Under the pieces are notes generated by a model. The model was not told the origin of the DNA. It made no database searches and was given only the letters and a program-made list of their open reading frames with translations. DNA of 54,816 bases. Source: Chloroflexota bacterium. Lineage in GTDB: Bacteria > Chloroflexota > Dehalococcoidia > JACQUD01. Position numbers and translations under genes: made by a program. Below are positions 1-41,473 of the stretch, one piece after another; the first letter of the stretch is position 1; each line of letters begins with the position of its first letter. The stretch is taken from positions 1-54,816 of the forward strand of contig JACQUD010000032.1 in NCBI GenBank assembly GCA_016210485.1, in the 5' to 3' direction.

Positions 1-60
1 GTTTAGCGCGCAGCGTTCGGGACGCTGAGGTCGGTGGTTCAAATCCACTCGCCCCGACCA
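1..60 (+). tRNA. tRNA-Pro (anticodon CGG), 5' part cut off by the window edge
   Basis: The anticodon stem CAGCG/CGCTG encloses the loop TTCGGGA, which gives anticodon CGG and a G at position 37, as usual for proline tRNAs. It is followed by a five-base variable region, a T arm with loop TTCAAAT, the acceptor strand CGCCCCG, discriminator A and an encoded CCA. The acceptor 5' strand and most of the D arm lie outside the window. An 11-base copy of its 3' end recurs about 1 kb downstream. Confidence 0.9.
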
Positions 61-200
61 TCCTCTTGGCCGGCTCTCGGCAGTCCTACAGGCCGTCAGA
101 TCCTGTGCCATCAAATACGATTTAGTCCTTTTGTTCTGACCTCTGGGAGAGGTGTTCGTATCTGTAGTAACGTCTTGTCCTAGGGCGTGCTAAAGAGTTC

Positions 201-253: not shown

Positions 254-414
254 CTTTGAGATTCAGGCAGGGTTGCAAGGAAAACTACGTGGCACGTTCT
301 TGCCTCATCGTCTGATAGGCGACCGCATCAGCCTGCGCGGGAGAATGCGCGTTTGCAAGTCGGAGAAGGATAATGTACGCTGTAAGCATATTGGTGCACC
401 GCAGGGGAGTGATG

Positions 415-882
415 ATGAAACGAGTTTTCGGCGATACAGACCGGATCAAGAAGATGGTGCGTGTTCCCGCGAAGAACACGCCGGGCGCTCAAGCGCAGGC
501 TGGGGCACCCGCAGGGCTCGTAGAGGCTATAAGAGGCTCACTGGCTGATGGCTTCCTGCCCTGTGCGGCGGCGTTCGGAATCGCCAAGAAGCTCAAGATC
601 CCTCTAGTTGTGGTCGGCGATGCCGCCGATGACATAGGCGTCAGGGTGGTCAATTGCCAACTCGGTTGCTTCAAGGTTGACAAGAGCGTCCACGATCTCG
701 TTGGAAAGACCGTCAGACCGGAACTGGCCGCAGCTGTCGAGTCCCATATCGCTAACGGTTCACTGACCTGCGCCGACGTATTCGGTCTAGCCAGGCGTCT
801 CAAAGTGCGCCCCATAGAAATCGCCGACGCTGCCAACCAGAGTCACACCAAGATCCACCACTGCCAGCTCGGCTGTTTCTAG
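415..882 (+). CDS. Tandem-repeat Cys protein with two CQLGCF motifs, function unknown
   Basis: The protein has 155 residues from the second of two adjacent ATGs (412 and 415), which places GGGGAG five bases upstream. It has a basic N-terminus of about 33 residues and then two homologous units, roughly 35-86 and 105-155. Each unit reads as two or three short helices with the pattern C-x30-C-x3-C: C50/C81/C85 and C119/C150/C154. Both end in CQLGCF, and the second is the very C-terminus. The helical, HTH-like pattern with an A-x2-L core and a three-Cys cluster suggests a metal-binding or redox-sensing small domain. I do not recognise a named family. The gene stands alone between a tRNA and a tiny membrane ORF, and a short copy of the tRNA end lies just beyond it. 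Coding is supported by the conserved internal duplication; function is not assigned. Confidence 0.75.
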   Translation: MKRVFGDTDRIKKMVRVPAKNTPGAQAQAGAPAGLVEAIRGSLADGFLPCAAAFGIAKKLKIPLVVVGDAADDIGVRVVNCQLGCFKVDKSVHDLVGKTVRPELAAAVESHIANGSLTCADVFGLARRLKVRPIEIADAANQSHTKIHHCQLGCF

Positions 883-1028: not shown

Positions 1029-1039
1029 CTCGCCCCGAC
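1029..1039 (+). repeat. 11-base copy of the tRNA-Pro 3' end
   Basis: CTCGCCCCGAC at 1029-1039 is identical to bases 48-58 of the tRNA-Pro gene, with partial similarity just upstream. Together they bracket the tandem-Cys gene. This is what a small tRNA-targeted insertion leaves behind, but no integrase is present and the match is short, so chance cannot be excluded. Confidence 0.3.
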
Positions 1040-1097
1040 ATTTCTCTGACCGAAGTCATTGGGCAGTAGACAAGAGTTAGAGAGGGAGAGACCCTAT

Positions 1098-1235: not shown

Positions 1236-2009
1236 GCCCCCCGTTCCCGGCTGCCTGGCTCTCTTCGCCTCCGCCTGCCACCGCTCGATGAGGCGCCGCT
1301 CGTTGGAAGTGAGCTGGGCGAGGGATAGGAGGTCGGGGCGGCGCTCCCAGGTCCGTCGCAAGGACTGGAGGCGGCGCCACTTGGCCACCTCTTCGTGGTT
1401 GCCGGAGAGGAGTTCCGACGGCACTTCCCATCCCTGAAATATAGTGGGCCGGGTATACTGAGGGTGCTCCAGGATGCCGGCGACGAAGGAATCCTCCCCT
1501 GCCGCCGCCCCCACCACCTCGGGAAGCAGCCTGACTACGGCATCCACCACCACCATGGCTGCCGGTTCCCCGCCGGTGAGCACGTAGTCGCCTATGCTGA
1601 GCTCGTCGGTGGCCAGATGCTGCCTCACCCGCTCGTCCACCCCTTCGTAGTGGCCGCAGAGGAGCAGGAAGCCCGGGAGATGAGACAGCTCCTGGGCCAC
1701 CCGGTGGCTGAAGGGGCGGCCCTGGGGAGTGAGCAGGATGACAGGGATACGGGCCTCAGCCCCCAACTCCTCCGACATCTCTTTGAGGGCAGCCTCCGCC
1801 GCCGAGAAAAGGGGCTCTGGCTTGAGGACCATCCCCGGGCCTCCGCCGTAGGGGTAGTCGTCCACCATCCGGTGCCGGCCCAGGCCGTGCTCCCGTAAAT
1901 TGTGCAGCACAATCTTGACCTGGCCCTGGGCAACCGCTCTGGCCAGGATACTCTCCCGGAAGACCCCGGCGAACATTCCGGGGAATAGAGTGATTATATC
2001 AATTCGCAT
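1176..2009 (-). CDS. trmD: tRNA (guanine-N1-)-methyltransferase TrmD
   Basis: TrmD methylates G37 of tRNAs that read CNN codons, including proline tRNAs, using S-adenosylmethionine, and so prevents frameshifting. The 277-residue product starts [13 protein letters not shown]. It has the GGGPGMV loop, the HYEGVDERV motif and the [13 protein letters not shown] stretch of the trefoil-knot SAM site, followed by a helical C-terminal domain. The last 30 residues or so are Gly/Pro/Gln-rich and look like a non-conserved tail. Its start overlaps the end of the upstream MogA/MoaB gene by 11 bases, so the two are probably translationally coupled. It is not in the usual rpsP-rimM-trmD-rplS operon. Confidence 0.95.
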
Positions 2010-2511
2010 GGGGCTGGCTCGGCGGCGTCCCAGTGTGCTCCGTTACATCGCCTCGGAGGATCTCCAGCCCGTGGCCCAGGGCGGGGAGGATGGCCTCCAG
2101 GCTCTCCCTCACCCCTTTGGGGCTGCCCGGAAGATTCACGATGAGGGTCCGGCCCCGGACGCCGGCCACGCCCCGGCTGAGCATGGCCATGGGGGTCTTA
2201 CTCAGGCCCTGGGCGCGCATGGCCTCGGCCAAGCCCGGGACAGGCCTCTCGACGACCGACTGAGTGGCCTCGGGGGTGACATCCCGAGGCCCCAGGCCGG
2301 TGCCGCCGGTGGTCAGGATGAGGTCTAGCCCCTCCTTGGCCCAGCGCCGGAGGCGGCTGGCGATGGCGTCCCTCTCGTCGGGGACTACCTCGTAGCGGAC
2401 CTCCTGGAACCCCATGGGGAGGAGCATCTCCCGGATGACCTGGCCGCTGGTATCCTCCCGCTCCCCCCGGGAGCCTTTATCGCTGGCCGTCAGAATGCCC
2501 AGGGTGAACAT
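1999..2511 (-). CDS. MogA/MoaB-family molybdopterin protein
   Basis: This family (MoCF-binding fold) adenylylates molybdopterin before molybdenum insertion. The 170-residue product contains the signature [16 protein letters not shown], a conserved NLPGSPKGV loop and C-terminal helices. The ATG at 2511 is preferred over an upstream one because GGAGG lies six bases before it and the protein then begins at [13 protein letters not shown], as in homologues. Its length is typical of MogA or MoaB, and sequence alone does not separate the two. It overlaps trmD by 11 bases. No other molybdenum cofactor gene is in the window. Confidence 0.88.
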
Positions 2512-2535
2512 TATAGCCTCCGCTGGCTCCATCAT

Positions 2536-2565
2536 AGCATAGCTGGCAGAGGGGATGAAGGCCAA
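2536..2565 (-). promoter_or_regulatory. Candidate promoter for mogA/moaB-trmD
   Basis: On the minus strand, TTGGCC and TATGCT are separated by 18 bases, ending 24 bases before the mogA/moaB start codon. The -35 matches only in part, so this is a weak prediction. Confidence 0.3.
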
Positions 2566-5160: not shown

Positions 5161-6045
5161 ATGAGTAAGAAAGGATACCTATTGGCTGTTCTTGGAGTTC
5201 TGGTCCTGGTGGCAGGGGTGCTCATTTTGGGGGCATGCACCGGGGCCCAAGGTACTCAGGGACCCCAGGGAGAGCGCGGGCCTCAGGGTGAGCGGGGACT
5301 CCAGGGGTCTCCAGGGACTACCCCTTCCCAGGCAGAGCTCAAAGCCCTCATCGCTGAGGTCTTGAGAGGAACACCCTCAACGGTGGCCGCCATCGCCAGG
5401 GGAGGCCGGCTCTACGATAACTGGGTGGAGGAGACCAAGGCTACTGCCCCGGCGAGCAATCAGCCCCTGTGGGCGCTCCAGACCACTAATGCCAGGACCG
5501 GCATAGACACCTGGCGATGCAAGGAATGCCACGGCTGGGACTACAAAGGAAAGGGAGGCGCTTATAGCAAAGGCTCCCATTACACCGGGTTTGTCGGCGT
5601 CTACGATGCCGGCACCTCCAAGTCACAAGAGCAGCTCTTGGGCATTCTGAAGGGGGCTACCAACGCCCGGCATGACTTCTCCCAAGTGCTCGACGAGCAA
5701 TCCCTCAACGAGTTGGCTGCCTTCCTTAGCCAGGGCCTGATAAACGAGACGGCGTATATAGATTACGCCACCAAGAAGCCTATCGGGGGGACCGCCACTA
5801 ATGGTGCTCAGCTTTATAGCGGTGTCTGCGCTGCCTGCCACGGCGCCGATGGCAAGCAGATAAACTTCGGCAGCGCCGAGGAGCCAGAATACGTGGGCAC
5901 CGTTGCCGCAGATAACCCCTGGGAGTTCCTGAACAAGGTGCGCTATGGCCAGCCAGGCACTACCATGCCATCTGGTTTGGTAAGTGGCTGGAATCTACAG
6001 AACGTTATGGATGTGCTGGCCTACGCTCAAACGCTATCCCAATAG
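5161..6045 (+). CDS. Dihaem cytochrome c lipoprotein with a collagen-like linker
   Basis: The 294-residue precursor has a lipoprotein signal with lipobox LGAC (Cys26), then a Gly-x-y collagen-like stretch at about residues 31-52, then two class I cytochrome c haem sites: CKECH at 120-124 and CAACH at 223-227. TTMPSG around Met269 is a plausible axial Met ligand for the second haem. The protein should be anchored outside the membrane and act in electron transfer. GAGGTG lies four bases before the ATG. A strong hairpin terminator follows. Co-transcription with the upstream BlaI/M56 pair is possible (146-base gap). The redox partner is unknown. Confidence 0.88.
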   Translation: MSKKGYLLAVLGVLVLVAGVLILGACTGAQGTQGPQGERGPQGERGLQGSPGTTPSQAELKALIAEVLRGTPSTVAAIARGGRLYDNWVEETKATAPASNQPLWALQTTNARTGIDTWRCKECHGWDYKGKGGAYSKGSHYTGFVGVYDAGTSKSQEQLLGILKGATNARHDFSQVLDEQSLNELAAFLSQGLINETAYIDYATKKPIGGTATNGAQLYSGVCAACHGADGKQINFGSAEEPEYVGTVAADNPWEFLNKVRYGQPGTTMPSGLVSGWNLQNVMDVLAYAQTLSQ

Positions 6046-20476: not shown

Positions 20477-23400
20477 TCAAGTGGTCAGCCTGCGATAGAG
20501 AGCGGGCAAGCGCTTGGGCAGAGTATGGATGTCGTCCACAATCTCGTAGCCCATATCGCTACACATGGTCTTCAGATAGTCGTGCCCCGCTCGGTCCACG
20601 GTGAGACAGAAGGGGACAATACCTTTCCTTCGGGCCTCCACCAGGGCCATGCGGGTGTCATGGACGGCATAGTCTTTCTCCACTCCATCCCGGCTGTAGC
20701 CGTGGTCCTGAGGGCGACCATCGCTGAGAAGGAAGAGAATCTTGGTCTTAGCTTCCTGGACATCCAGCTTGGCGGTGGCATGGCGGATAGCGGGGCCCAT
20801 GCGAGTGGCCTGGAGGGGAGCGATTTTATCCAAGCGGCGTTTCACCTGCTCAGAGAAAGGCTCCCCCAGGTCCTTGATTATATAGAATTCTACATTCTCC
20901 CGGCTGTAGCCGGAGAAGCCATATATGCTGTAGGTATCTCCAATAGTCTCCAGGGCCTGGATGAACAGGACGGCGCTTTCCTTCTCCACATCGATGATGC
21001 GCTTGTCGATGGGCCGGCTCCCCGGGAGGGCGTGGTAGAGCGGGGGCTCGGCCCGGGATAGCCATTGGCTGGAGTAGATATCCATCTCACTCACAGCCTC
21101 AGCGGTAGAGGCGCTCATATCCAGTAGGAAGGCCACAGCCACATCCCGCTCTATCTTGTTGCGCCGCCAATATATCTTTTCGGAAGGGGTCTGGCCAGCG
21201 CGCCGGTCCACCATGGCCTCGATGACTGCGTCCAACTCATATTCCTCCCCATCAGGCAGCTTCTTCATCTTCCGCTGAAACTCAGGGTTTATGAGTTCAA
21301 ATTGTTTCTTCACCTGGATGGCCAGATGGTGATATTCCCTCAACGTCCTCTCGAAGAAATCCGCCGAGCCCTCCTCCATGACCTTCTGCTCCACCCGGCA
21401 CCATCGAGGCTTGAAATCGCCGGCCCGGAAGTCCCACTCGTCATATAGGAAGCTCAGGACATCGTCGCGTTCCAGGGATTCCTGGCTGGGATCCAGCCCA
21501 TTCCGCTTTTGGGAGCTGGAGGCTCTCTCGCGGCGAGCGGCCTCTTTCACCAAATTGGAGATTAGCTGATCCCGAGGACGTTCCAGGTCTTTATCCTTTA
21601 ACTGGGGCTCGGTGCTATTATCCATAGCCTCCTGAAGAGCCGGCGCTGATATTTGTGTTCGCTCCCGTTCCAGGCGGCTCAGGATCTGCACCAACTCCGG
21701 CTTGAGCTCTCCCCGGAATTCCACCGTTTGGGGCGGCGTGAATTCCAGGGCATGCGCTTCCCTGTCCAAAGGCGGTTCAGCAGGATTCTGGTCCCCCATA
21801 TCCTCCAGGGTTTCGGCATCCAGCAAGGCATCCAGGTCCATGTCTTGCCATGCCTCCGAGGGCGCGACTATGTTGGGTATGGAGACCAGCAGTCGATAGA
21901 GGCGGATGGTGGCCTCGGCAGAGTCCTCCACAGTAGCGCCTGGAGACCTGGATTGGGCCTGGAGATGGACGGCTCGTTTCATAATGGACTGGAGTCCGTT
22001 GGACACCGCCAGGCCTCGGGTCTGACCCAGGCTTATCCTGACCAGATTCTCCAGGATCGCCTCTCTGAGAGGAAGGGTGATGATATCGGGGCGGGCCTCC
22101 AAGGAGTCCCTCTGGATACCTTCGTATAGAGGCTTTATCCCTTTGTATTCCTCCTTGACCTGATGATCGATGCGGCTATCCTCCACCACGGTAAAGGTTT
22201 CGGAGGCCAACTTGCGTTCTGGGAAAAAGTTAAAGAAGCGCTGGAAATCGGTGATAGACTTCTCCCCCGCGGCCTCCTTGGGCTCCAGGCTTGGGCGAAG
22301 GTCGGGGAAATGGTGGGCAGGTCGATCGAAGCTGAAGTCGAAGGTGCCCAGCTCGATATGGCCAGTCTGATGGGTGGCCGCCACCTTGGCCCAGCGGAAG
22401 TTCTCATCCTTATGAGGATATCTGTTGATTACGGGCGGCAGGAAAATGGCGTTACCTTCTGTGGTAGGACTGTCGGGAGAGGCCCAGCCCAGGTTCTTCT
22501 CGGTGAGCTTCATAGTGGGCAGAATGAGGATGGAGCGCCCAGTGAGGGCACAGCAATACATCTGGAGCACATCGGAGACTCGACTCAGCTCCATGCTGGA
22601 GGCCAGGCGCTCTATGACCTCCAGGGAGCGTCTGGCCTCCAGGCGGAAGTAGTCCACGCCTGCCTCCGGGCTATCCCTCAGCAGGATCTGCCCCTCTCGA
22701 AGCCAGGGCTCCAGATCACTAGAGCGAACGCGCGCCAGCACCGCCGGGCAGTTCTTGAGAAACTCCAGGCCAGCCAGAGGGGAGTCCACCACCAGCTCTT
22801 CCGCCAAGGACAGAAGCTTGGGGTGAAGTGCCCAGTCCAGGGTGCCCAGGGAGCGTGCTCCCTCATGGAAGAATAAGAAGGGGATAGATTCCTGAGCCCC
22901 AGACTGGGCGACCAGGGCCACTAGGGACAGGAAGTGGCGCCGCTCGTCGCGACAGATGCGATTTAAGGCCTTGGGGGCAACCTCGAAGCAGAGTTTGGCA
23001 TCTCGAGGGGTGATCTCCGCCAGGAGGCAAGCCAGTTCGTAGAGGGCATCTCTATCCCCCTTCTCCAGCTCGGCCAGGACGCCGGGGGCCAGATTCAGAG
23101 CCTCCAGGGCCAAGTCATAGGATCGGTTGGCCAGGCGGTCCAAAAAGAGGGATAGCTTCTTCATCTCGTCTAAACTGACCTGAATCAAAAGCTGGGGGCT
23201 TAAATCAAAGAGGCGACAGGCCAGGGAACTGGAGCGCCAGGTACCTTTGTAGAGGGACCGCCCCAGGAGAGCCCAATCGACAAGGCGGTCAGGCGAGAGA
23301 TGGTGTAGGGTCTCGGCGCTAGCACGAAAGAAGGCGCAGGCCAAAGCCGAGGACTCCTGGGCCAGGGCCTTGCCTCCCTGAGTCCAGGGAGACAAGTGAG

Positions 23401-23632
23401 AGAAATCCAGCTGGCGCAGTACCACCAGGGTAGCTCGGAAGTATTCCACCGTAGCCTCCCAGGAGCGGAAGGAGTGCTCGGCCAGCGCGATGCCTTCCTT
23501 TCCCCAAAGGTAAAAGTCTGCGCTGCTCAGCCGGCGCTGCACCGCCGGGGCTGTGCTGCGGAACTCCTGGAGGACAGCCGGGGGGAACTTCTGAAGGCCC
23601 GCTTCTATATTTTCAATGCTGTCATAAAGCAT
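20477..23632 (-). CDS. CbbO/NorD-like VWA protein, unusually long (1051 residues)
   Basis: CbbO and NorD work with a MoxR-type ATPase to activate a metalloenzyme (Rubisco or nitric oxide reductase). Residues about 1-350 form helical repeats of a HEAT-like or TPR-like kind. The middle domain carries HQTGH (421-425) and EDSRID (484-489), which resembles a gluzincin zinc site with Gln in place of the catalytic Glu. A charged linker (about 650-720) leads to a C-terminal VWA domain with the MIDAS residues D838, S840, S842, a Thr near 943 and LSDG at 969-972. Family members are usually 600-800 residues, so the N-terminal repeats are extra. The gene lies 36 bases after its ATPase partner. No Rubisco or NO reductase gene is in the window, so the client is unknown. 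Confidence 0.82.
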   Translation of the reverse strand: MLYDSIENIEAGLQKFPPAVLQEFRSTAPAVQRRLSSADFYLWGKEGIALAEHSFRSWEATVEYFRATLVVLRQLDFSHLSPWTQGGKALAQESSALACAFFRASAETLHHLSPDRLVDWALLGRSLYKGTWRSSSLACRLFDLSPQLLIQVSLDEMKKLSLFLDRLANRSYDLALEALNLAPGVLAELEKGDRDALYELACLLAEITPRDAKLCFEVAPKALNRICRDERRHFLSLVALVAQSGAQESIPFLFFHEGARSLGTLDWALHPKLLSLAEELVVDSPLAGLEFLKNCPAVLARVRSSDLEPWLREGQILLRDSPEAGVDYFRLEARRSLEVIERLASSMELSRVSDVLQMYCCALTGRSILILPTMKLTEKNLGWASPDSPTTEGNAIFLPPVINRYPHKDENFRWAKVAATHQTGHIELGTFDFSFDRPAHHFPDLRPSLEPKEAAGEKSITDFQRFFNFFPERKLASETFTVVEDSRIDHQVKEEYKGIKPLYEGIQRDSLEARPDIITLPLREAILENLVRISLGQTRGLAVSNGLQSIMKRAVHLQAQSRSPGATVEDSAEATIRLYRLLVSIPNIVAPSEAWQDMDLDALLDAETLEDMGDQNPAEPPLDREAHALEFTPPQTVEFRGELKPELVQILSRLERERTQISAPALQEAMDNSTEPQLKDKDLERPRDQLISNLVKEAARRERASSSQKRNGLDPSQESLERDDVLSFLYDEWDFRAGDFKPRWCRVEQKVMEEGSADFFERTLREYHHLAIQVKKQFELINPEFQRKMKKLPDGEEYELDAVIEAMVDRRAGQTPSEKIYWRRNKIERDVAVAFLLDMSASTAEAVSEMDIYSSQWLSRAEPPLYHALPGSRPIDKRIIDVEKESAVLFIQALETIGDTYSIYGFSGYSRENVEFYIIKDLGEPFSEQVKRRLDKIAPLQATRMGPAIRHATAKLDVQEAKTKILFLLSDGRPQDHGYSRDGVEKDYAVHDTRMALVEARRKGIVPFCLTVDRAGHDYLKTMCSDMGYEIVDDIHTLPKRLPALYRRLTT

Positions 23633-23668
23633 GGGACGCCTCGACCAATCGGAGGACTCGGCCTTCTT

Positions 23669-24565
23669 TTAGGGAAAGATAGCGGAGACAACTTCCTCCA
23701 CGCTTTTCTGAACCTCTGAGTCGTCGGTGAGAGCCCAGACCACAGCCACCTCGCAGGCCCTCCTGGGAGCTATGCCTTGCCGGATGAGCTCGCCGGCGTA
23801 GATGAGGAGGCGGGTGCTCACCCCTTCCTGGAGGCCATGTTCCTTGAGATGGCGCACCTTCTCCCCCAGCTTGGCTAGCTCCATGGCAGTGGCCTCATCC
23901 ACTCCGCTCTCATGCTGGATGATAGCCTTCTCCACATCCCGGGGAGGGTAGCCGAACTCCATAGCGATGAAGCGCTGCCGGGTAGAGTGCTTGAGGTCCT
24001 TCAGAGCGCTCTGGTAGCCGGGGTTATAAGAGATAACCAGAAGGAAACCGTCGCTGGCCTCCAGAACCTGTCCTTTCTTCTCTACTGGCAGGATGCGACG
24101 GTGGTCGGTAAGGGGATGGATGAGGACAGTAGTATCTTTACGGGCCTCTACGATTTCGTCTAAGTAGCAGATGGCCCCTGCCTTGACCGCCCGGGTCAAG
24201 GGGCCATCTATCCACCGGGTGGACTCCCCCTCCAGGAGGTAGCGCCCTACCAGGTCCGAGGCAGTGAGATCCTCGTGGCAGGCCACGGTGACCAGGGGCA
24301 GGCCCTGATGCTCTGACCCCTTATCCTTGCCCTTGATGACAGTGAGGGGCCTCCCGAGCTTCCATGCCATGTATTGAACAAAGCGGGTCTTGCCGCACCC
24401 GGTGGGCCCTTTGAGGAGGACCGGGATCTTCTGAGTGTAGGCCGCGGTGAAGATCTCTTCCTCGTCGTGCACTGGGATATAGAAAGGCTCCTCCACCGAG
24501 GCATATTCCTCGATCATGTGTTCCTTGTATAAGGTTCTAATCCCTTCCGCACACATTGCTATCAC
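23669..24565 (-). CDS. MoxR/CbbQ/NorQ-type AAA+ ATPase
   Basis: The 298-residue protein has Walker A GPTGCGKT (about residue 55), pore region [15 protein letters not shown], Walker B AICYLDEI, sensor ISYNPGY and the C-terminal helical lid with [12 protein letters not shown]. This matches CbbQ/NirQ/NorQ, which use ATP and a VWA partner to remodel target enzymes. The GTG at 24565 overlaps the coaE stop as GTGA, suggesting coupled translation; an ATG at 24556 is an alternative start. The VWA partner follows directly. Confidence 0.9.
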
Positions 24566-33672: not shown

Positions 33673-35583
33673 CTAAGGTAAGGCCCTCTGGAACTGGCCC
33701 AGGGCCATCAGGGGGAAATAGTTTCGATACAGATGATAGTTGATCATGAAGTCGCCAGGGAAGCCAGTGCCGGTGAAGTAGGGTTCCTCCCAGGTGCCGT
33801 CCTCCCTTTGGGTATCCATAAGATATCGGATGCCGCGGAGCACCTCAGGGCTGGGCCCTTCGGCAGCCAGGAGACCCATGATGGCCCAGGCCGTCTGGGA
33901 GGCGGTGGAGGGGCCTTGGCCACGAAGGGAGGGATTCTTATAGGAGTCGCAGGACTCCCCCCAGCCCCCATCCGGGTTATGGCGAGCCTTGAGCCAGGCG
34001 GCAGCCCGCCGAATGTATTCCTGCCCCATATCCTCCCCAGCAGCCTTGAGGGCCAGCATAGCCGACCAGGTGCCGTAGATATAGTTTACCCCCCAGCGCC
34101 CGAACCAAGCGCCATCGGCCTCCTGTTCCTTCTTCAGATAGGACAGGCCCCGGGCCGATGGACGATAGGTGAGGGGGTAGCCCAGCCGCCCCAGCATCTC
34201 CAACATGTGGGCAGTGACATCGGCGGAGGGAGGGTCCAGGAACTCGCCGAAGTCGGCGAAGGGGATCTGGGCCAGAGGCCCCTTGTTGTTGTCCATGTCG
34301 AAAGCGCCCCAACCCCCGTTGCGGCTCTGCATGCTCACCGACCAGACGACGCCCCTCTCTATGGCCTCTTCCAGGGCTTCTCTTTCAGGCAAGGAGACCT
34401 TCTTCAGGGCTATCACTACCTCGGCCACGTCGTCCACGTCGGGATAGAGGTCGTTCTCGAACTCGAAGGCCCAACCCCCGGGGGGCGTCCTGGGGTTCTT
34501 CACCTGCCAGTCGCCCCCGGCCATTATCTGCTCCTGGAGAAGCCAGCGGGCCGACCTCTGGAGGGCGGGGTGGTCGGGAGAGAGGCCGGAGTCAGCCAGG
34601 GCAATGACAGCCAGAGCAGTGTCCCACACCGGGGAGACGCAGGACTGGTGGTGCCAGGAGTCCCCCTCATCTATGGCGAAGGCCTCGAACCCTTGAAGCC
34701 CTTTGACCATTACTGGATGGTCCATAGGATAGCCCCGGAGCTTGAGGGCCAGGAGGGAGTAGACCCAGGGGGGCTGGATGCCACCCCAGGAGCCATCGGC
34801 CTCCTGGTGCTCCACGATCCAGCCCTCGGCCCGGCGCAGGGCGGCGCTCCGGCCCGGCTTCCAGGGAAGCTTATCGTAGGCCCGGAAGGCCCGGTCCAGG
34901 GCCAGGAAGAAGGACTTCCAGCTCGCCCAGCGCTGTCTCCGAGGCATGGCAAAGGCATCATGAGGTAGAGGCTGGGGGTAAAGCTCCTGGATGTCCATGG
35001 GCAGGGTGCAGCGAGGCTTCTTGTGGAGGATGACGAGCATGGGGACTACGGTTCCCCGTGCCCAGCAGGCGAACTCGTAGATATTTAGATAAAACCAGTT
35101 GGGCAATAGCACGACCTCCGGAGGCATGGCCGGCACTCCCTTCCAGGGGAACTGACCGAATAGGGCCAGCCATATCTTGGTGAAGACCCTGGCCCTGGGG
35201 ATGCCCCCCCTGGCCAGGATGAACTCTCGGGCCTTCCTCATGAAATCGGCCTCGGGAGAGATGCCCGCCACCTTGAGAGCGAGGTAGGCCTCGATGGTGG
35301 TGCTCAGGTCGCCGGGGCCACCATACCATATGGCCCAGGTGCCATCGGGGCGCTGGTGGCTCCGGATGTAGTTGGCTATCTGCCTCTCCCGCTCGGGCAG
35401 GGGGACGCCCAGGAAGCGACGCAGTAGGAGGTATTCCGCGGTTATGGTCACGTTGGACTCCAGCTCCCCGGCCCAGTAGCCCTGGGGGGCCTGAGTGCGC
35501 ATGAAGTAGCCCTGGGAGCGCTGGAGGGCCAAGGACAGGCGCTCCTGGAGTCCCCTATCTTTAGTCAGCGTTTCAATCTCCAT
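33673..35583 (-). CDS. shc: Squalene-hopene cyclase
   Basis: Shc cyclises squalene to hopene or hopanol at the membrane. The product (about 636 residues; the ATG at 35583 follows an adjacent GTG) has the catalytic DVDD motif at about residues 382-385 inside DLYPDVDDVAEV, and repeated QW motifs such as QEADGSWGG, QSRNGGWGAFD and QREDGTWEE. Its length is normal for the family. It is 15 bases from hpnA. Hopanoids are sterol-like membrane lipids; squalene synthesis genes are not in this window. Confidence 0.96.
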   Translation of the reverse strand: MEIETLTKDRGLQERLSLALQRSQGYFMRTQAPQGYWAGELESNVTITAEYLLLRRFLGVPLPERERQIANYIRSHQRPDGTWAIWYGGPGDLSTTIEAYLALKVAGISPEADFMRKAREFILARGGIPRARVFTKIWLALFGQFPWKGVPAMPPEVVLLPNWFYLNIYEFACWARGTVVPMLVILHKKPRCTLPMDIQELYPQPLPHDAFAMPRRQRWASWKSFFLALDRAFRAYDKLPWKPGRSAALRRAEGWIVEHQEADGSWGGIQPPWVYSLLALKLRGYPMDHPVMVKGLQGFEAFAIDEGDSWHHQSCVSPVWDTALAVIALADSGLSPDHPALQRSARWLLQEQIMAGGDWQVKNPRTPPGGWAFEFENDLYPDVDDVAEVVIALKKVSLPEREALEEAIERGVVWSVSMQSRNGGWGAFDMDNNKGPLAQIPFADFGEFLDPPSADVTAHMLEMLGRLGYPLTYRPSARGLSYLKKEQEADGAWFGRWGVNYIYGTWSAMLALKAAGEDMGQEYIRRAAAWLKARHNPDGGWGESCDSYKNPSLRGQGPSTASQTAWAIMGLLAAEGPSPEVLRGIRYLMDTQREDGTWEEPYFTGTGFPGDFMINYHLYRNYFPLMALGQFQRALP

Positions 35584-35598
35584 CACCTAATTCGCCCT

Positions 35599-36642
35599 TC
35601 ACCCAGGGCCTGCCTGTCCCCCCGCTTTCAGGGGCGTCGAGCGGGCCTGGGGAGTCTTCTTCACGTATCCGTGGTCCAGAAACCAGCGGGCGGCGTCCAC
35701 CAGAGCATGCCCAATGGGAGTCTGGGGGAGGCCCAGCTCCCGGACGGCCTTGGAGGCATCGTAATACATGGGCTTGCGGGCCATCCTCACCCCCTCCAGA
35801 GGGATGCGCGGCTCCCTCCGGAGAAGCTTGCCCTCGATAGCATAGTCGATGTAGCCCAAGGCCAGGGCCAGCCCCCAGGGGAGGCGATGCCGGGGGGCTG
35901 GCAGCCCCGTCACCTCAGCCAGCTTCTGAAGGAGGTCCTTCATAGTCAAATTCAAGTGGCCCAGGATGTAGCGACAGCCAGTTTTTCCCCTCTCCAGGGC
36001 CAGAATGTGTCCCCGGGCCACATCCCGGACATGGACGACGTTGAGGCCGGTGTCGATATAGGCCGGCATGCGGCCGTTGAGGAAGTCCAGCACTATGCGC
36101 CCGGTAGGGGTGGGCTTGGCATCCCAAGGGCCGATAGGGGTGGAGGGGTTGACAATGACCACGGGCAGGCCCTCGGCGGCGAATCTCAGGGCCACCTTCT
36201 CCGCCAGATATTTGGACCTCTTGTAGTGGCCCACCAGGCCCCGGGAGTCCAGTAGCGTATCCTCGGTGCCGGAGCCGTGGGGGAGCCGACCCACAGCGGC
36301 GACGCTGCTGGTGTAAACAACCTTCTCTATCCCTATTTTCTGGGCTGCGGCCAGGATATTCTCGGTGCCCTGGACGTTAGCCCGATATATGGCCTGGGGA
36401 TGGCGATGCCAGAGGGTGTAGGCGGCGGCGGCGTGGAAGAGGGCCTGGCAACCCTCCAGGGCCAGACCCAGGGAGGCTGTCTCCGTTATGTCCCCCTGGG
36501 CCAGCTCCACATCCAGCCCCTTCAGGCTAGCGGTGTTGCTGGTAGGGCGAACCAAGGCTCTCACCTGGTAGCCAGAGGCCAGGAGCTCTCGCACCAGGTT
36601 AGCCCCGATGAAGCCGGTGGCGCCGGTGACCAGGACTCTCAT
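35599..36642 (-). CDS. hpnA: Hopanoid-associated sugar epimerase HpnA
   Basis: The 347-residue NAD-dependent SDR-type protein starts MRVLVTGATGFIGANLVRELL, with the Rossmann GxxGxxG and a catalytic YxxxK (YKRSK). HpnA sits in hopanoid clusters and is thought to act on a sugar or side-chain intermediate; its exact reaction is not settled. The start ATG overlaps the TGA of hpnG (ATGA). The C-terminal tail after about residue 325 is Gly/Pro-rich. The third quadruplex element lies 36 bases before its start, inside the end of hpnG. Confidence 0.9.
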   Translation of the reverse strand: MRVLVTGATGFIGANLVRELLASGYQVRALVRPTSNTASLKGLDVELAQGDITETASLGLALEGCQALFHAAAAYTLWHRHPQAIYRANVQGTENILAAAQKIGIEKVVYTSSVAAVGRLPHGSGTEDTLLDSRGLVGHYKRSKYLAEKVALRFAAEGLPVVIVNPSTPIGPWDAKPTPTGRIVLDFLNGRMPAYIDTGLNVVHVRDVARGHILALERGKTGCRYILGHLNLTMKDLLQKLAEVTGLPAPRHRLPWGLALALGYIDYAIEGKLLRREPRIPLEGVRMARKPMYYDASKAVRELGLPQTPIGHALVDAARWFLDHGYVKKTPQARSTPLKAGGQAGPG

Positions 36643-37445
36643 ATGTCTCCCTGCCCCGCTTTGAAGACGTTCTCTCTTCCCACCCGCCCACCCAGAGGCG
36701 GGGCTGCACCCCCTGCCCAGTCCACTCCAGTAAAATGGCTTTCCTCCTGGTAAGCGGACGAGCGGATAAGCTCCCGGGTGAAAGCGATGGCCCAGGCCCC
36801 CAGGGCACGCGAGGCCCGACGGGAGCGGAGGCCCAGGCAAAGGAATCCATGCCAATGCTGGGGTCTCAGGACAAAATATCTTATGGCTTTTCCAGCCAGC
36901 AAACGCCCGTCGGCATTGATGAAAGGGTTGAGGTCGGGCACGAACTCCTCCTGGGGGTCAAGGACGGCCCGAACTGAGAGGAAGGGGAGGCCCTTTTCTT
37001 GGGCGGCCCACCCCACCCAGAAGCTCTCCATATCCACCACCTGCACCCCTAGGCCCCGGCCCAGAGCCTCCTTTTCCTTAGGGGAGGTAGCCACGCAGTT
37101 TTGGGTAAGGCCCTCGCCTTCCCTCCAAGGGAAAGATGTAGCCTCGATGGCCCGCCGGGCGACCTCCAGGAGGGCAGGATGACACACCACGCTCCTCGGC
37201 TCTTCTTTCTCTCCATGCCAGTGCACCCGACGGCATAGCACCAACTCCCCCGGCCTCAGACCAGGCTGAGTCCCCCCGGAGAAGCCCAGGGAGACCAGGG
37301 CGCAGTGGGGATGGGCCGCCAGCGCTTTAGCGACCCCCACCTCCGTAGCCCACCGCCCCATCCCTGTGGCCAGGGCCAGGGCGTCTGTTCCCAGGCCTCG
37401 AATCCTCGCTATCTCCTGGGGCATGGCGCTGAGAAAGACTATCAT
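36639..37445 (-). CDS. hpnG: Hopanoid-associated phosphorylase HpnG
   Basis: HpnG removes adenine from adenosylhopane to give ribosyl-hopane on the way to bacteriohopanetetrol. The 268-residue protein begins MIVFLSAMPQEIARI and has LVSLGFSGGTQPGLRPGELVL and VVDMESFWVGWAA, the purine nucleosidase-like core. The last 28 residues or so are encoded by the quadruplex repeat, including APPLGGRVG, and are probably not native. It overlaps hpnH by four bases and hpnA by four bases. Confidence 0.9.
   Translation of the reverse strand: MIVFLSAMPQEIARIRGLGTDALALATGMGRWATEVGVAKALAAHPHCALVSLGFSGGTQPGLRPGELVLCRRVHWHGEKEEPRSVVCHPALLEVARRAIEATSFPWREGEGLTQNCVATSPKEKEALGRGLGVQVVDMESFWVGWAAQEKGLPFLSVRAVLDPQEEFVPDLNPFINADGRLLAGKAIRYFVLRPQHWHGFLCLGLRSRRASRALGAWAIAFTRELIRSSAYQEESHFTGVDWAGGAAPPLGGRVGRENVFKAGQGDI
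36679..36713 (-). repeat. Hairpin plus G-quadruplex sequence inside the 3' end of hpnG (element 3 of 3)
   Basis: On the minus strand a GGGG-TGCAG-CCCC hairpin (36712-36700) is followed by GGGTGGGCGGGTGGG (36693-36679), then GAACGTCTTCAAAGC. The last nine bases CTTCAAAGC also follow element 1. It ends 36 bases before the hpnA ATG but lies inside the hpnG reading frame, so it has been built into coding sequence. Confidence 0.6.
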
Positions 37446-38479
37446 CCCGGCCTCCGCCCGTTGATGGAGCCGGCCCTGGGGGCAGTGAGGTTCCACTTCA
37501 GCATCTGCCACATCGCCCTGGGGCTGCGGGTGGCCAGAAGCACCGCCGAGGCCTCGAAGCCGGAGTGCACCATGCAGTTCTGGCAGCGAGGGTCCCGCCC
37601 AGTGCCGTAGTTCTCCCAGGGCGTCTCCTTCATGAGCTGGGCAAAAGATGTAGCGTGTCCATCGGTGATGAGATAGCAGGGCCGCTTCCATCCCTTGACA
37701 TTCCGGGTTGGGTTACCCCACGGGGTGCAAGAAAGCTGCCGCTGTCCGGCCAGGAACTGAAGGTATAGGGGCGAGTTATAGAAAGACACCCATCCCTTCA
37801 TCCCATAGATGGTCTGAAACAGGCCATGGACATCCTTCCGGGTGAGGAAGAGATCATCCCGCACCTCCTGATAGCTGAAGGCGGGGGAGACCATGACCCC
37901 GTCCACCCCCACCCTGCCCAGCATTCGAAACAGCTCTTCTATCTCTCGGAGGTCGGTCCCCTTGTAGATGGTAGTGTTGGTGTAAACCCTGAAACCGGCT
38001 GACTTGGCCGCCTCGATGCTCTCCAGAGCCTTGCCAAAGACCCCGGGGCGGCAGGCGATGGCATCGTGGGTGGCCTCCAGGCCATCCAGGTGGATGCCGA
38101 AGCTCAGATATGGGCTGGGCTGGAACTTGTGCAGCGACTGCTTCACCAGTAGCCCGTTGCTGCACAGTATTACGAAGCGCCGCCGCTGGATTATCTCAGC
38201 CACTATTCGGTCCATATCCGGCAGGACAAGAGGTTCCCCACCGGTGATGGCCACCACCGGTGCTCCAGACTCCTCCACCGCCTCCAGACACTCCTCCCGA
38301 GAGAGGCGCTGTCCCAGGGTATCGGCATATTCCCGGATGCGGCCACAGCCGGCGCAGCTCAGGTTGCACTGGAAAGTGGGCTCCAGCATGAGAACCAGGG
38401 GGAAACGACGGCTGAGAGTCAGACGCCGCCCCAGCAAGTAGCGGGCCAGGCTCAAGCTCAGCCTTAGGGGATAAGCCAT
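37442..38479 (-). CDS. hpnH: Radical SAM hopanoid C-5' transferase HpnH
   Basis: HpnH uses a 5'-deoxyadenosyl radical to add adenosine to hopene, giving adenosylhopane. The 345-residue protein has the radical SAM motif C38-x3-C42-x2-C45, the GGEPLV loop and a C-terminal Cys-containing segment (PRCQNCMVHSGFEAS) in an extended domain. It leads the hpnH-hpnG-hpnA-shc group and overlaps hpnG by ATGA. It is the best evidence that this organism makes extended C35 hopanoids. Confidence 0.94.
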   Translation of the reverse strand: MAYPLRLSLSLARYLLGRRLTLSRRFPLVLMLEPTFQCNLSCAGCGRIREYADTLGQRLSREECLEAVEESGAPVVAITGGEPLVLPDMDRIVAEIIQRRRFVILCSNGLLVKQSLHKFQPSPYLSFGIHLDGLEATHDAIACRPGVFGKALESIEAAKSAGFRVYTNTTIYKGTDLREIEELFRMLGRVGVDGVMVSPAFSYQEVRDDLFLTRKDVHGLFQTIYGMKGWVSFYNSPLYLQFLAGQRQLSCTPWGNPTRNVKGWKRPCYLITDGHATSFAQLMKETPWENYGTGRDPRCQNCMVHSGFEASAVLLATRSPRAMWQMLKWNLTAPRAGSINGRRPG

Positions 38480-38491
38480 GATTTCCTCAAA

Positions 38492-39517
38492 CTAATAATC
38501 CCGCTCCACCAGGAAGGTGGCCATATCCTGGAGCTCGGCATCCCAGGGTGGGCAGAGCTGGCCTCCCAGGGCAATCAGCGCCTCTTCTTTCAGCGCCCTG
38601 GCTTTGTCCTGGGCCTGCTCCCTGACTCTCAATTCCTCCAGCAATTGAAGGACACAGCCTATCTCCGTCTCCTCCAGGGGGCTGCCACTGGCATAGAGAG
38701 AGAGGAGCTCGTCCCGGGCCGTGCCTGTGGCCTTCTCCAGGGCCAGGACTACAGGGTAGGACTTCTTGCGGCGACGGAGATCGCCGCCCAGAGGCTTGCC
38801 TGTAGACTCCTCCCGACCCCATATGCCCAGGATGTCGTCTCTGATCTGGAAGGCCAGACCCAGCTTTCGCCCGGCGTTGCAGAAGGCCTCCGCGGTGGTC
38901 CCATCCCCGCCACCAAGGAGTGCCCCAAGGTGCAGGGAGCAGCCGATGAGGGCCGCCGTCTTCCTCTCCACCATCTCCAAATAGGCCTGAGTGGCTATAT
39001 CCAGGCGGCTCTCATAGCTGAGGTCCAAGTATTGCCCCTCTATCATCTCAAGAATGCTCCGGTCCAGGAGACGAGAGGCCTGGAGCCTTTTCGGGATAGG
39101 CACTCCCTGGCCTTCCAAACGCTCCAGGGCTCGGCCCGCCAGGATGCGCAGGGCGTTGCCGGCGTTGAGGGCTTGAGCTTTGCCCCAAAGATACCACAGG
39201 GTGGGGCGATGGCGGCGCTGGCTGTCCCCGTCCTGGATGTCGTCGTGAACCAGGGAGAAGTTATGCGCCAGCTCCAGGGCGGCGGCAGCGGGCAGGGCCT
39301 GTTCCATATCTCCCCCCACGGCCTGGCAGGCCAGAAGGCAGAGGGTGGGGCGCAGGGCCTTTCCCCCGAATCCAGGGCCGGGGTTCCCATGCTCATCCAT
39401 CCAGCCCAGGTGGTAATGGAGGAGCTGTCGGCAGGGGATATCCTCCGGGGCCAGGATTTCCCTCAGCTCCCTCTCGATGCAGGAGCGATAGCGTAAGAAA
39501 GCCATAGGTAGCTCCAT
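38492..39517 (-). CDS. Polyprenyl diphosphate synthase
   Basis: This trans-prenyltransferase adds isopentenyl units to allylic diphosphates. The 341-residue protein has the first aspartate-rich motif DDIQD at 92-96 and the second RDDILGIWG region, a GGKALRPTL arginine loop, and a long helical bundle. The start is set at the ATG 39517 because GAGGAG then lies seven bases upstream; this leaves a 13-base gap after dxs. Chain length (C15 to C20 or longer) cannot be read with certainty. Its position after dxs and before hpnH suggests it supplies farnesyl diphosphate for squalene or quinone tails. Confidence 0.9.
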   Translation of the reverse strand: MELPMAFLRYRSCIERELREILAPEDIPCRQLLHYHLGWMDEHGNPGPGFGGKALRPTLCLLACQAVGGDMEQALPAAAALELAHNFSLVHDDIQDGDSQRRHRPTLWYLWGKAQALNAGNALRILAGRALERLEGQGVPIPKRLQASRLLDRSILEMIEGQYLDLSYESRLDIATQAYLEMVERKTAALIGCSLHLGALLGGGDGTTAEAFCNAGRKLGLAFQIRDDILGIWGREESTGKPLGGDLRRRKKSYPVVLALEKATGTARDELLSLYASGSPLEETEIGCVLQLLEELRVREQAQDKARALKEEALIALGGQLCPPWDAELQDMATFLVERDY

Positions 39518-39530
39518 AGACATCTCCTCT

Positions 39531-41417
39531 TCAGGCTCGTAGAGAAGAGGCCTGAGCGATCTCCGGGAAGCTGGCCAGAGCCTGGTGGGCGATGCCGGAG
39601 GCGTCGATGCCGTAGAGGGAGCGCAGGAGGGTTTGGGGGCCATGCTCGATGAAGTCATCAGGAAGGGCCAGGGTTAACAAGCGAGCCTGGCTCTGGGCCG
39701 TAGCCAGAAGATGGGCCACCTGGCTGCCGAAACCCCCGCTCAGGGTGTTCTCCTCCACCGTCACCAACCGACTCGTCTCTTCGGCGGCCTGGAGGATGAG
39801 GTCTCTGTCCAGGGGCTTGGCGAAGCGGGCGTTGATGACCCGGGCCGAGACGCCTTGCTTCTCCAGCATCTGTGCCGCCTCGAGGGCCGGGTGGACGGAG
39901 TTGCCCAGGGCTATCAGGGTCAGGTTCCGGCCCTCGCGGAGCACTTCGCCTTTGCCTATGGGCAGCTCATTCAAAGATGGAGATAGGGGCACTCCCAGGC
40001 CACCCCCCCGAGGATAGCGCACCGCCATGGGCTGTCCACAGCGCAAAGCTGTGTAAAGCAGGTGGCGCAGCTCGTCCTCATCCTTAGGAGCAGCCACTAT
40101 CATATTGGGCACAGCGCAAAGATAAGAGATGTCGAAGGTGCCCTGGTGGGTCTTGCCGTCATCGCCTACTATGCCAGCTCGATCTATAGCGAAGGTGACG
40201 GGGAGGTTCTGGATGCAGACGTCATGGATGATCTGGTCATAGGCCCTTTGCAGAAAGGTGGAATACACAGCGACGATGGGTGTGAAGCCCTGGGAGGCCA
40301 GACCCGCGGCCATGGTAACGGCGTGCTGCTCACAGATTCCCACATCGAAGACACGGTCGGGATAGTGCTCCTTGGCCAGGGCCAGGCCGGTGCCATCCAG
40401 CATGGCGGCGGAGATGGCCACTGCCTTGGGGTTGTCCTGAAGGAGCTGGCAGACCGTCTGGCCGAAGACGCTGCTGTAGGATGGGGTGGAGTCCTTGGAT
40501 TCCTTCGGGGGTACGCCGTGATAGGCCACGGCATCCTCCTCTGCCGGCGGGTATCCCTCGCCCTTTTGGGTCAGCACATGGACCAGGACTGGCCCTCGAC
40601 CCCGCTCTCGCGCCCAGAGGAGAGCCCTCTCCAGTTGCGCCAAATCGTGGCCAGGGATGGGACCCAGATACTCGAAGCCCATCTCCCTCCAGAAAGTAGT
40701 CGGGGCCATCAGACCGAGGATGAAGTTCTTAAGGCGTTCCCCCAAAGCCCATATTCGAGCGCCCAGGGGCAGACGGCGGACCACGATCCAAGCGTCTCTT
40801 TTGGCCCTCCGATAGCCGGGGCTGGCCCGGACACGGCTAAGACGTTTAGCCAAAGCGCCCACGCTGGGCGATATGGCCATCCCATTATCGTTGAGGACCA
40901 CGGTGAGGCGAGTTCCCAGGTGTCCAGCGTGGTTCAGAGCTTCGAAGGCCATACCCCCGCCCAGAGCTCCATCGCCTATAATGGCCACTACATGGTAAGA
41001 CTCCCCTGAGAGATCTCGGGCCAAGGCCATACCCGTGGCCGCGGAAATGGATGTGGAAGCGTGGCCGGCGCCGAAGGCGTCGTGGCAACTCTCCTCCGGG
41101 CTGGTGTAGCCGGATAGCCCGCCATACTGCCGCAAGCTGGTAAACTTGTCCCTCCGGCCCGTTATGAGCTTGTGAGGATAGCTCTGGTGCCCCACATCCC
41201 AGACTATTTTATCGTTGGGGCTGTGAAAGACCCGGTGCAAGGCCAGGGTGAGCTCCACCACCCCCAAATTGGAGGCCAAATGTCCCCCATTCAGGCTTAC
41301 GGTGGCGATGAGCCTCTCCCGAATCTCCCCGGCCAGTTCTTCCAATTGGGGAAGGCTAAGGGTCTGGAGCTGCCCCGGCTCGTCGATGGTGTTCAAGATG
41401 TCTAGCTTGGTGCCCAT
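39531..41417 (-). CDS. dxs: 1-deoxy-D-xylulose-5-phosphate synthase
   Basis: Dxs condenses pyruvate and glyceraldehyde-3-phosphate using thiamine diphosphate, the first and often rate-limiting step of the MEP isoprenoid pathway. The 628-residue protein begins at the ATG 41417, six bases after GAGGT. It has GHQSYPHKL, the ThDP site IIGDGALGGGMAFEALN, DRAGIVGDDGKTHQG and the transketolase-type C-terminal domain. It heads the operon leading to hopanoids, under a near-consensus promoter. Confidence 0.97.
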   Translation of the reverse strand: MGTKLDILNTIDEPGQLQTLSLPQLEELAGEIRERLIATVSLNGGHLASNLGVVELTLALHRVFHSPNDKIVWDVGHQSYPHKLITGRRDKFTSLRQYGGLSGYTSPEESCHDAFGAGHASTSISAATGMALARDLSGESYHVVAIIGDGALGGGMAFEALNHAGHLGTRLTVVLNDNGMAISPSVGALAKRLSRVRASPGYRRAKRDAWIVVRRLPLGARIWALGERLKNFILGLMAPTTFWREMGFEYLGPIPGHDLAQLERALLWARERGRGPVLVHVLTQKGEGYPPAEEDAVAYHGVPPKESKDSTPSYSSVFGQTVCQLLQDNPKAVAISAAMLDGTGLALAKEHYPDRVFDVGICEQHAVTMAAGLASQGFTPIVAVYSTFLQRAYDQIIHDVCIQNLPVTFAIDRAGIVGDDGKTHQGTFDISYLCAVPNMIVAAPKDEDELRHLLYTALRCGQPMAVRYPRGGGLGVPLSPSLNELPIGKGEVLREGRNLTLIALGNSVHPALEAAQMLEKQGVSARVINARFAKPLDRDLILQAAEETSRLVTVEENTLSGGFGSQVAHLLATAQSQARLLTLALPDDFIEHGPQTLLRSLYGIDASGIAHQALASFPEIAQASSLRA

Positions 41418-41443
41418 ATGGATACCTCGTATACCGATGCTCC

Positions 41444-41473
41444 ATTTTACCAATCGGGCAGCCCCTTTGTCAA
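41444..41473 (-). promoter_or_regulatory. Promoter of the dxs-hopanoid operon
   Basis: On the minus strand TTGACA (41473-41468) and TAAAAT (41449-41444) are separated by 18 bases, ending 27 bases before the dxs start. Confidence 0.8.

Follow-up and report, generated by a model that had tools for sequence, protein, structure and literature searches.

The sulfur-relay proteins DsrC and TusE are small and partly helical and carry conserved cysteines in a C-terminal tail. ModE, a molybdate-sensing repressor, is composed of an N-terminal HTH domain and a molybdate-binding TOBE domain. Biosynthesis of the molybdenum cofactor (Moco) is regarded as solved in model aerobes. W/Mo formate dehydrogenases and aldehyde oxidoreductases (AORs) are central to acetogenesis and CO2 reduction, and the anaerobes that have them possess additional genes whose purpose is unknown, such as those for two MoeA proteins (PMC10102598). 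FdhD is a maturation factor of formate dehydrogenase, which binds sulfurated bis-MGD (PMC6239281), and riboswitches of the RF01055 class govern Moco and tungsten-cofactor genes (PMC2408646). Here we analyze a small cysteine-containing protein, hereafter Q, whose relatives are encoded next to genes of this pathway.

The window is an entire contig of 54,816 nucleotides (54.8 kb) belonging to a Dehalococcoidia MAG of 1.24 Mb with ~69% completeness. The Q gene lies close to the contig start (Table 1). Its reading frame has no internal stops, and its ATG is aligned in register with the start codons of relatives. Translation confirmed the description given in the earlier note: two tandem units with the same cysteine spacing (31, then 4) are offset by 69 residues, and each is closed by CQLGCF, that of unit 2 being the C-terminus of the protein. 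The N-terminal extension contains the motif M-R-D/V-F-x-E/D-x-D-K-x-K-K, which in the alignment is common to the tandem proteins of Dehalococcoidia. Q is a real two-unit protein and not a chance reading frame, because matches were found in 33 of the 294 sampled genomes of the class, the window's own genome aside, and at no fewer than 548 confirmed loci in a profile scan of GTDB genomes. A second match within the same genome (contig C76) was weak, did not follow the reading frame of the enoyl-CoA hydratase-like gene in which it lay, and was rejected.

Table 1. Coordinates of Q and of the neighboring features in the window
Feature	Position (nt)	Strand	Basis
tRNA gene, 3' part, cut by the contig start	1..57	+	Rfam RF00005, 33.6 bits, 5' truncated
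Direct repeat copy 1 (tRNA 3' end)	48..66	+	repeat search
RBS-like AGGGGAG	403..409	+	sequence; 5 nt 5' of ATG 415
Q (two-unit CQLGCF protein)	415..882	+	155 aa plus stop; translation, homologues, start by alignment
Q N-terminal extension, residues 1-34	415..516	+	alignment; low-confidence part of the model
Q unit 1, residues 35-86	517..672	+	profile match 517-675, E 2.4e-25
Unit 1 Cys codons	Cys50 562-564; Cys81 655-657; Cys85 667-669	+	
Q unit 2, residues 102-155	718..879	+	profile match 718-879, E 2.9e-23
Unit 2 Cys codons	Cys119 769-771; Cys150 862-864; Cys154 874-876	+	
Direct repeat copy 2	1029..1047	+	repeat search; 16/19 nt identical to copy 1
MogA/MoaB-type molybdopterin-binding domain protein	1999..2565	-	Pfam MoCF_biosynth 8.8e-35

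Neither the whole protein nor its separate units matched Pfam-A or NCBIfam above curated cut-offs, the best values (E 0.003–0.05) being at chance level; matches to the profiles of glycerate kinase, RacA, IF2_N, and DUF7645 were of this kind and were rejected. Sequence searches of the PDB with the whole protein or single units gave no match, and Foldseek searches with Q models returned nothing at E<1. These results agree with the statement of the earlier note that no characterized function was known for such an arrangement. AlphaFold2 models of 58 single units had a mean pLDDT of 88.5 and a pTM of 0.70, with helices predicted at residues 2–12, 20–30, and 34–43, strands at 17–19 and 47–49, and a less certain C-terminal tail (pLDDT ~71). 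The AlphaFold2 model of the window protein (82.9) contained two such units behind a loose N-terminus, in agreement with the one-unit model. The unit is thus predicted to be a compact HTH-like fold assignable to no family, and the small HTH-like helical domain suspected from the sequence is borne out by the models. Foldseek gave weak likenesses, all with E of 1 or higher, to homeodomains and further HTH domains, plus NfnC/NuoE-type domains in the case of the two-unit model.

The earlier note had proposed to look for single-domain relatives and their gene neighbors; many one-unit proteins of ~57 aa were found among the relatives in the 294 class genomes, and the family proved to be tied to Mo/W-cofactor genes. 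Full-length two-unit relatives were found in the same search at identities of 58% down to 36%. The best 80 of the at least 548 GTDB loci belonged to Chloroflexota, Nitrospirota, Bacillota, several delta-proteobacterial lineages, Bipolaricaulota, and one archaeon of Thermoplasmatota. Ten carriers from other phyla had one clear copy per genome, with a second match (E=0.01) in a single genome, and no carriage of Q on plasmids was found. Three architectures were recognized: a single unit of ~57 aa, a tandem, and a C-terminal fusion to TrmO_N-FmdE. In a quick tree of the units, the second units of the window type formed one clade (SH-aLRT 99), most deep forks being unresolved.

Since the GTDB scan relied on the CQLGCF pattern, conservation was judged only on loci found by homology. 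The cysteines, on which the earlier note had based its idea of a metal or redox site, are retained in homologues: among 93 distinct units (single-unit numbering), C20 and C51 were present in 100% and C55 in 91%, along with G54 (100%), F56 (100%), and Q52 (95%) of the tail. Most losses of C55 concern tandem proteins, in which one of the units reads CQLGLF, CQLGFF, or CQLGAF. In 92 of 97 proteins, the motif ended 0–1 residues from the C-terminus. The window protein has all the marks of this family, namely a cysteine at the start of helix 2, the terminal C-Q-L-G-C-F, a unit of ~55 aa, and the order helix–strand–helix–helix–strand. A literature search for the string CQLGCF found no paper. Q represents a large family that appears undescribed in the profile libraries and literature searched, connected with a Mo/W cofactor pathway that is itself already known.

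The genomic setting was clearest in Bacillota, where 62 of 150 sampled genomes carried 64 Q genes and 88 had none. In 53 of these 64 cases, Q was immediately followed by moeA in the same orientation, mostly after a gap of 15–135 nt, so the earlier view of Q as a gene standing alone does not hold for the family. At one Bacillota locus (L167), a MobB gene scoring above the cut-off preceded Q and a moeA-like frame followed it. MoeA was encoded in all 62 carriers versus 45 of 88 non-carriers (Fisher p=4e-13), FdhD in 58 versus 22 (p=3e-18), and AOR (the W-enzyme family AFOR) in 56 versus 33. The link between Q and FdhD persisted among MoeA-positive genomes (p=2e-8). The Moco riboswitch RF01055 was found directly upstream of Q, tens to ~270 nt from its start, in 15 of the 28 Q-moeA loci checked and also in Symbiobacterium. 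In an alignment of 10 of these riboswitches (loci L153, L154, L150, L158, L147, L148, L163, L165, L166, and L145), the P3 stem was retained in eight; its absence in L150 and L147 corresponds to the form proposed as a tungsten-cofactor sensor.

As the first gene of the moeA operon in Bacillota, Q could be a redox- or metal-sensing HTH DNA-binding regulator of Mo/W and formate genes, in which oxidation of the cysteines or their binding of a metal would alter DNA binding and the tandem form would be a fused dimer. Consistent with this are the predicted HTH-like fold with its weak structural likenesses, the basic character of the proteins (median pI 8.9), and the tandem duplication of units. However, the best match to an HTH family was at chance level (0.02), conservation sits in the cysteine tail whereas helix 3 is variable at its exposed positions, which are often E or D, no shared palindrome was seen upstream of Q, and about half of these operons are already equipped with a Moco riboswitch. 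Q does not replace ModE either: ModE-like HTH proteins, all scoring below the family cut-off, were found in 40 of 62 Bacillota carriers versus 17 of 88 non-carriers, and because of this positive association, the idea of Q as a ModE substitute was rejected. We consider regulation rather unlikely, but it is the chief rival of a role in cofactor maturation. A candidate operator, GGAGA-N3-TCTCC, present at 5 of 23 loci, was located ~176–179 nt upstream of Q, apparently within the preceding gene, and was rejected.

The association with FdhD was also found in Dehalococcoidia, where it was encoded in 28 of 33 Q carriers versus 11 of 47 other genomes (p=6e-8) or, counted by family, in 14 of 17 versus 9 of 33 (p=3e-4). 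The presence of MoeA did not separate carriers from non-carriers in this class (p=0.07). The dependence of FdhD on Q is not strict and was rejected as such, since in one genus (g61) FdhD persists in three of four Q-negative genomes.

Several tandem relatives of the window protein are surrounded by molybdenum genes. The closest (58% identity, L178) follows genes for an MFS_MOT1 molybdate transporter and MobB; another (L171) is preceded by a molybdopterin oxidoreductase, a ferredoxin, FdhD, and MoaA; a third adjoins AOR and a nitrate-reductase-like enzyme. In Chloroflexota, Q also adjoins MoaD-like and MoaA genes (L086 and L106) or forms the TrmO_N-FmdE-Q fusions (L078:4909-6138, L114, and L115), the first of which is followed by MoaA and also has a 163-aa gene resembling MoaC or MogA next to it. 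In Nitrospirota, Q is flanked on one side by a MobB-like gene, whose Pfam match fell below the cut-off in the single case tested; on the other side come a cytochrome c assembly gene and then hemA. Independent phyla thus share a genomic link of Q to genes of Moco and formate dehydrogenase maturation. This tie was missing from the earlier note, as was the MogA/MoaB-type gene in the window. The latter, 1.1 kb from Q, is the nearest cofactor gene and lies on the opposite strand, so that the two share no operon. Elsewhere, the genome of the window carries MoeA, MobA, and MobB, as well as FdhD, the last of these in a cluster with an AOR; in this region (L182:2508-10227), FdhD has an HdrA-like flavoprotein and the AOR-family gene as its neighbors instead of a formate dehydrogenase.

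Most single units of Dehalococcoidia occur in a different setting, a Crp/Fnr-Q-YgbA_NO-ferredoxin group without cofactor genes. This setting would suit an ordinary small protein with an unrelated stress or electron-transfer role, co-regulated with anaerobic respiration genes. Such a role is very improbable given that Bacillota, Nitrospirota, and Chloroflexota have independently put Q together with MoeA, MobB, MoaA/MoaD, or the FmdE fusion. YgbA_NO, a nitrous-oxide-stimulated promoter family, recurs at or near Q together with Crp/Fnr and ferredoxin genes at loci L033, L036 (positions 1197-1568), L038, L039, L044, L057, and L058, a putative link to nitrosative stress.

We consider it about as probable as not (roughly 0.5) that Q is an accessory factor of Moco/Tuco maturation using thiolates for the handling of metal or sulfur. 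The genome context shows that Q is linked to cofactor genes, that a Moco riboswitch precedes it at about half of the loci checked in Bacillota, and that it co-occurs with FdhD; this context supports the pathway well, and the chemistry is inferred. Each unit would be a compact scaffold in which helix 2 begins with one cysteine and the fixed tail C-Q-L-G-C-F-COOH carries two. The resulting thiolate site may bind Mo/W, an Fe-S or Zn ion, or a persulfide; at the step of MoeA, FdhD, or the apo-enzyme, Q could either pass on the metal or sulfur or serve as a docking partner. It would serve mainly FdhD-requiring enzymes of the formate dehydrogenase type and W-dependent aldehyde oxidoreductases. Single units probably work in pairs, the tandem form being a putative fused pair. 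Against this role are the setting of the Dehalococcoidia single units, the occurrence of FdhD without Q, the lack of separation by MoeA in Dehalococcoidia, and the losses of the third cysteine. The co-occurrence of Q with cofactor genes also partly reflects a shared anaerobic lifestyle.

A specific version of the maturation role is a sulfur relay in the manner of DsrC/TusE, in which the C-terminal cysteine tail would pass persulfide sulfur to FdhD or the cofactor, forming the sulfido ligand of formate dehydrogenase. The invariant CQLGCF at the extreme end of the chain, the low model confidence of this tail, and the rank of FdhD as the strongest co-occurrence are consistent with it, as is the binding of bis-MGD with a sulfido ligand by FdhD-type proteins (PMC6239281). 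Nevertheless, it appears improbable: no match to the DsrC/TusE profile (PF04358) was found in Pfam, unit 1 of tandem proteins holds the motif internally, there are three cysteines rather than the two of a swinging arm, and Q is also linked to AOR and MoeA, for which such sulfuration is not needed.

The earlier note had placed Q beside a tRNA and between copies of the tRNA end. The tRNA is real; ARAGORN made no call for this part, and the truncation is a contig-end effect, because the MAG contig, which the window covers in full, starts there. The bracketing copy is real as well and goes beyond chance: its repeat score of 16 was reached in none of 60 shuffles, and the exact 11-mer match in 8 of 1,000. 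The ~1 kb between the copies, containing the Q gene, has a G+C content of 55% compared with 60% for the window. The pair may be an att-like scar of integration at the tRNA. The supposed functional relevance of the tRNA did not stand: no matching tRNA 3' end was seen beside relatives of Q, and since these are not so placed, the repeat tells how the gene may have arrived rather than what it does. The tRNA is incidental to the function of Q.

Other parts of the window contain genes of separate interest. A squalene-hopene cyclase is encoded at 33676-35586 (minus strand, Pfam 4.8e-153), with an apparent radical SAM gene and a DXP-synthase-like gene among the frames at 35602-41453 beside it; this is probably a hopanoid cluster in a Dehalococcoidia-like genome. 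A CbbQ/NirQ/NorQ-type AAA ATPase gene followed by that of a 1051-aa VWA-domain protein (20480-24565, minus strand) forms a NorQ/NorD-like chaperone pair, and a secreted protein encoded at 5161-6042 (plus strand) has collagen-like GPQGERG repeats preceding cytochrome c domains.

Conserved, placed first in the moeA operon behind a Moco riboswitch, and co-occurring with FdhD, Q is a direct and testable candidate for a hitherto unrecognized maturation or sensing step. We tentatively suggest, while regarding it as less than probable, that anaerobes might use Q as a component dedicated to the maturation of the Mo/W-bis-pterin cofactor and so far missing from the pathway. Q would then be a thiolate scaffold that loads metal or sulfur at a point between MoeA and the enzymes dependent on FdhD; its conservation would reach from Bacillota through Nitrospirota to archaea, and its size of ~57 residues would explain why it was overlooked. 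Cofactor insertion is often the bottleneck when CO2-reducing formate dehydrogenases are produced heterologously, and Q could help there as well.

Compared with known systems, Q shares with ModE an HTH-type fold, which for Q is predicted, and a molybdenum gene context, but it has no sequence match to ModE in Pfam or NCBIfam, carries three conserved cysteines, and lacks a TOBE domain. The structural likeness to the NuoE-type N-terminal helical domain / NfnC (9n5u_C; 43 aligned columns, 1.3 A rmsd, and 30% identity in Foldseek) is not significant, its E being 3.3, and there is no common Pfam family. FmdE (PF02663) and TrmO (PF01980) are fused to Q in some Chloroflexota, where Q forms a C-terminal domain of its own that neither Pfam match covers. 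DsrC/TusE proteins resemble Q in their small size, partly helical structure, and tail cysteines, whereas the CQLGCF tail and the third, upstream cysteine are specific to Q. The formate dehydrogenase chaperone FdhD/FdsC, which acts in bis-MGD delivery and sulfuration (PMC6239281), co-occurs with Q but is unrelated to it in sequence and size, and the two are members of different families sharing the same neighborhood.
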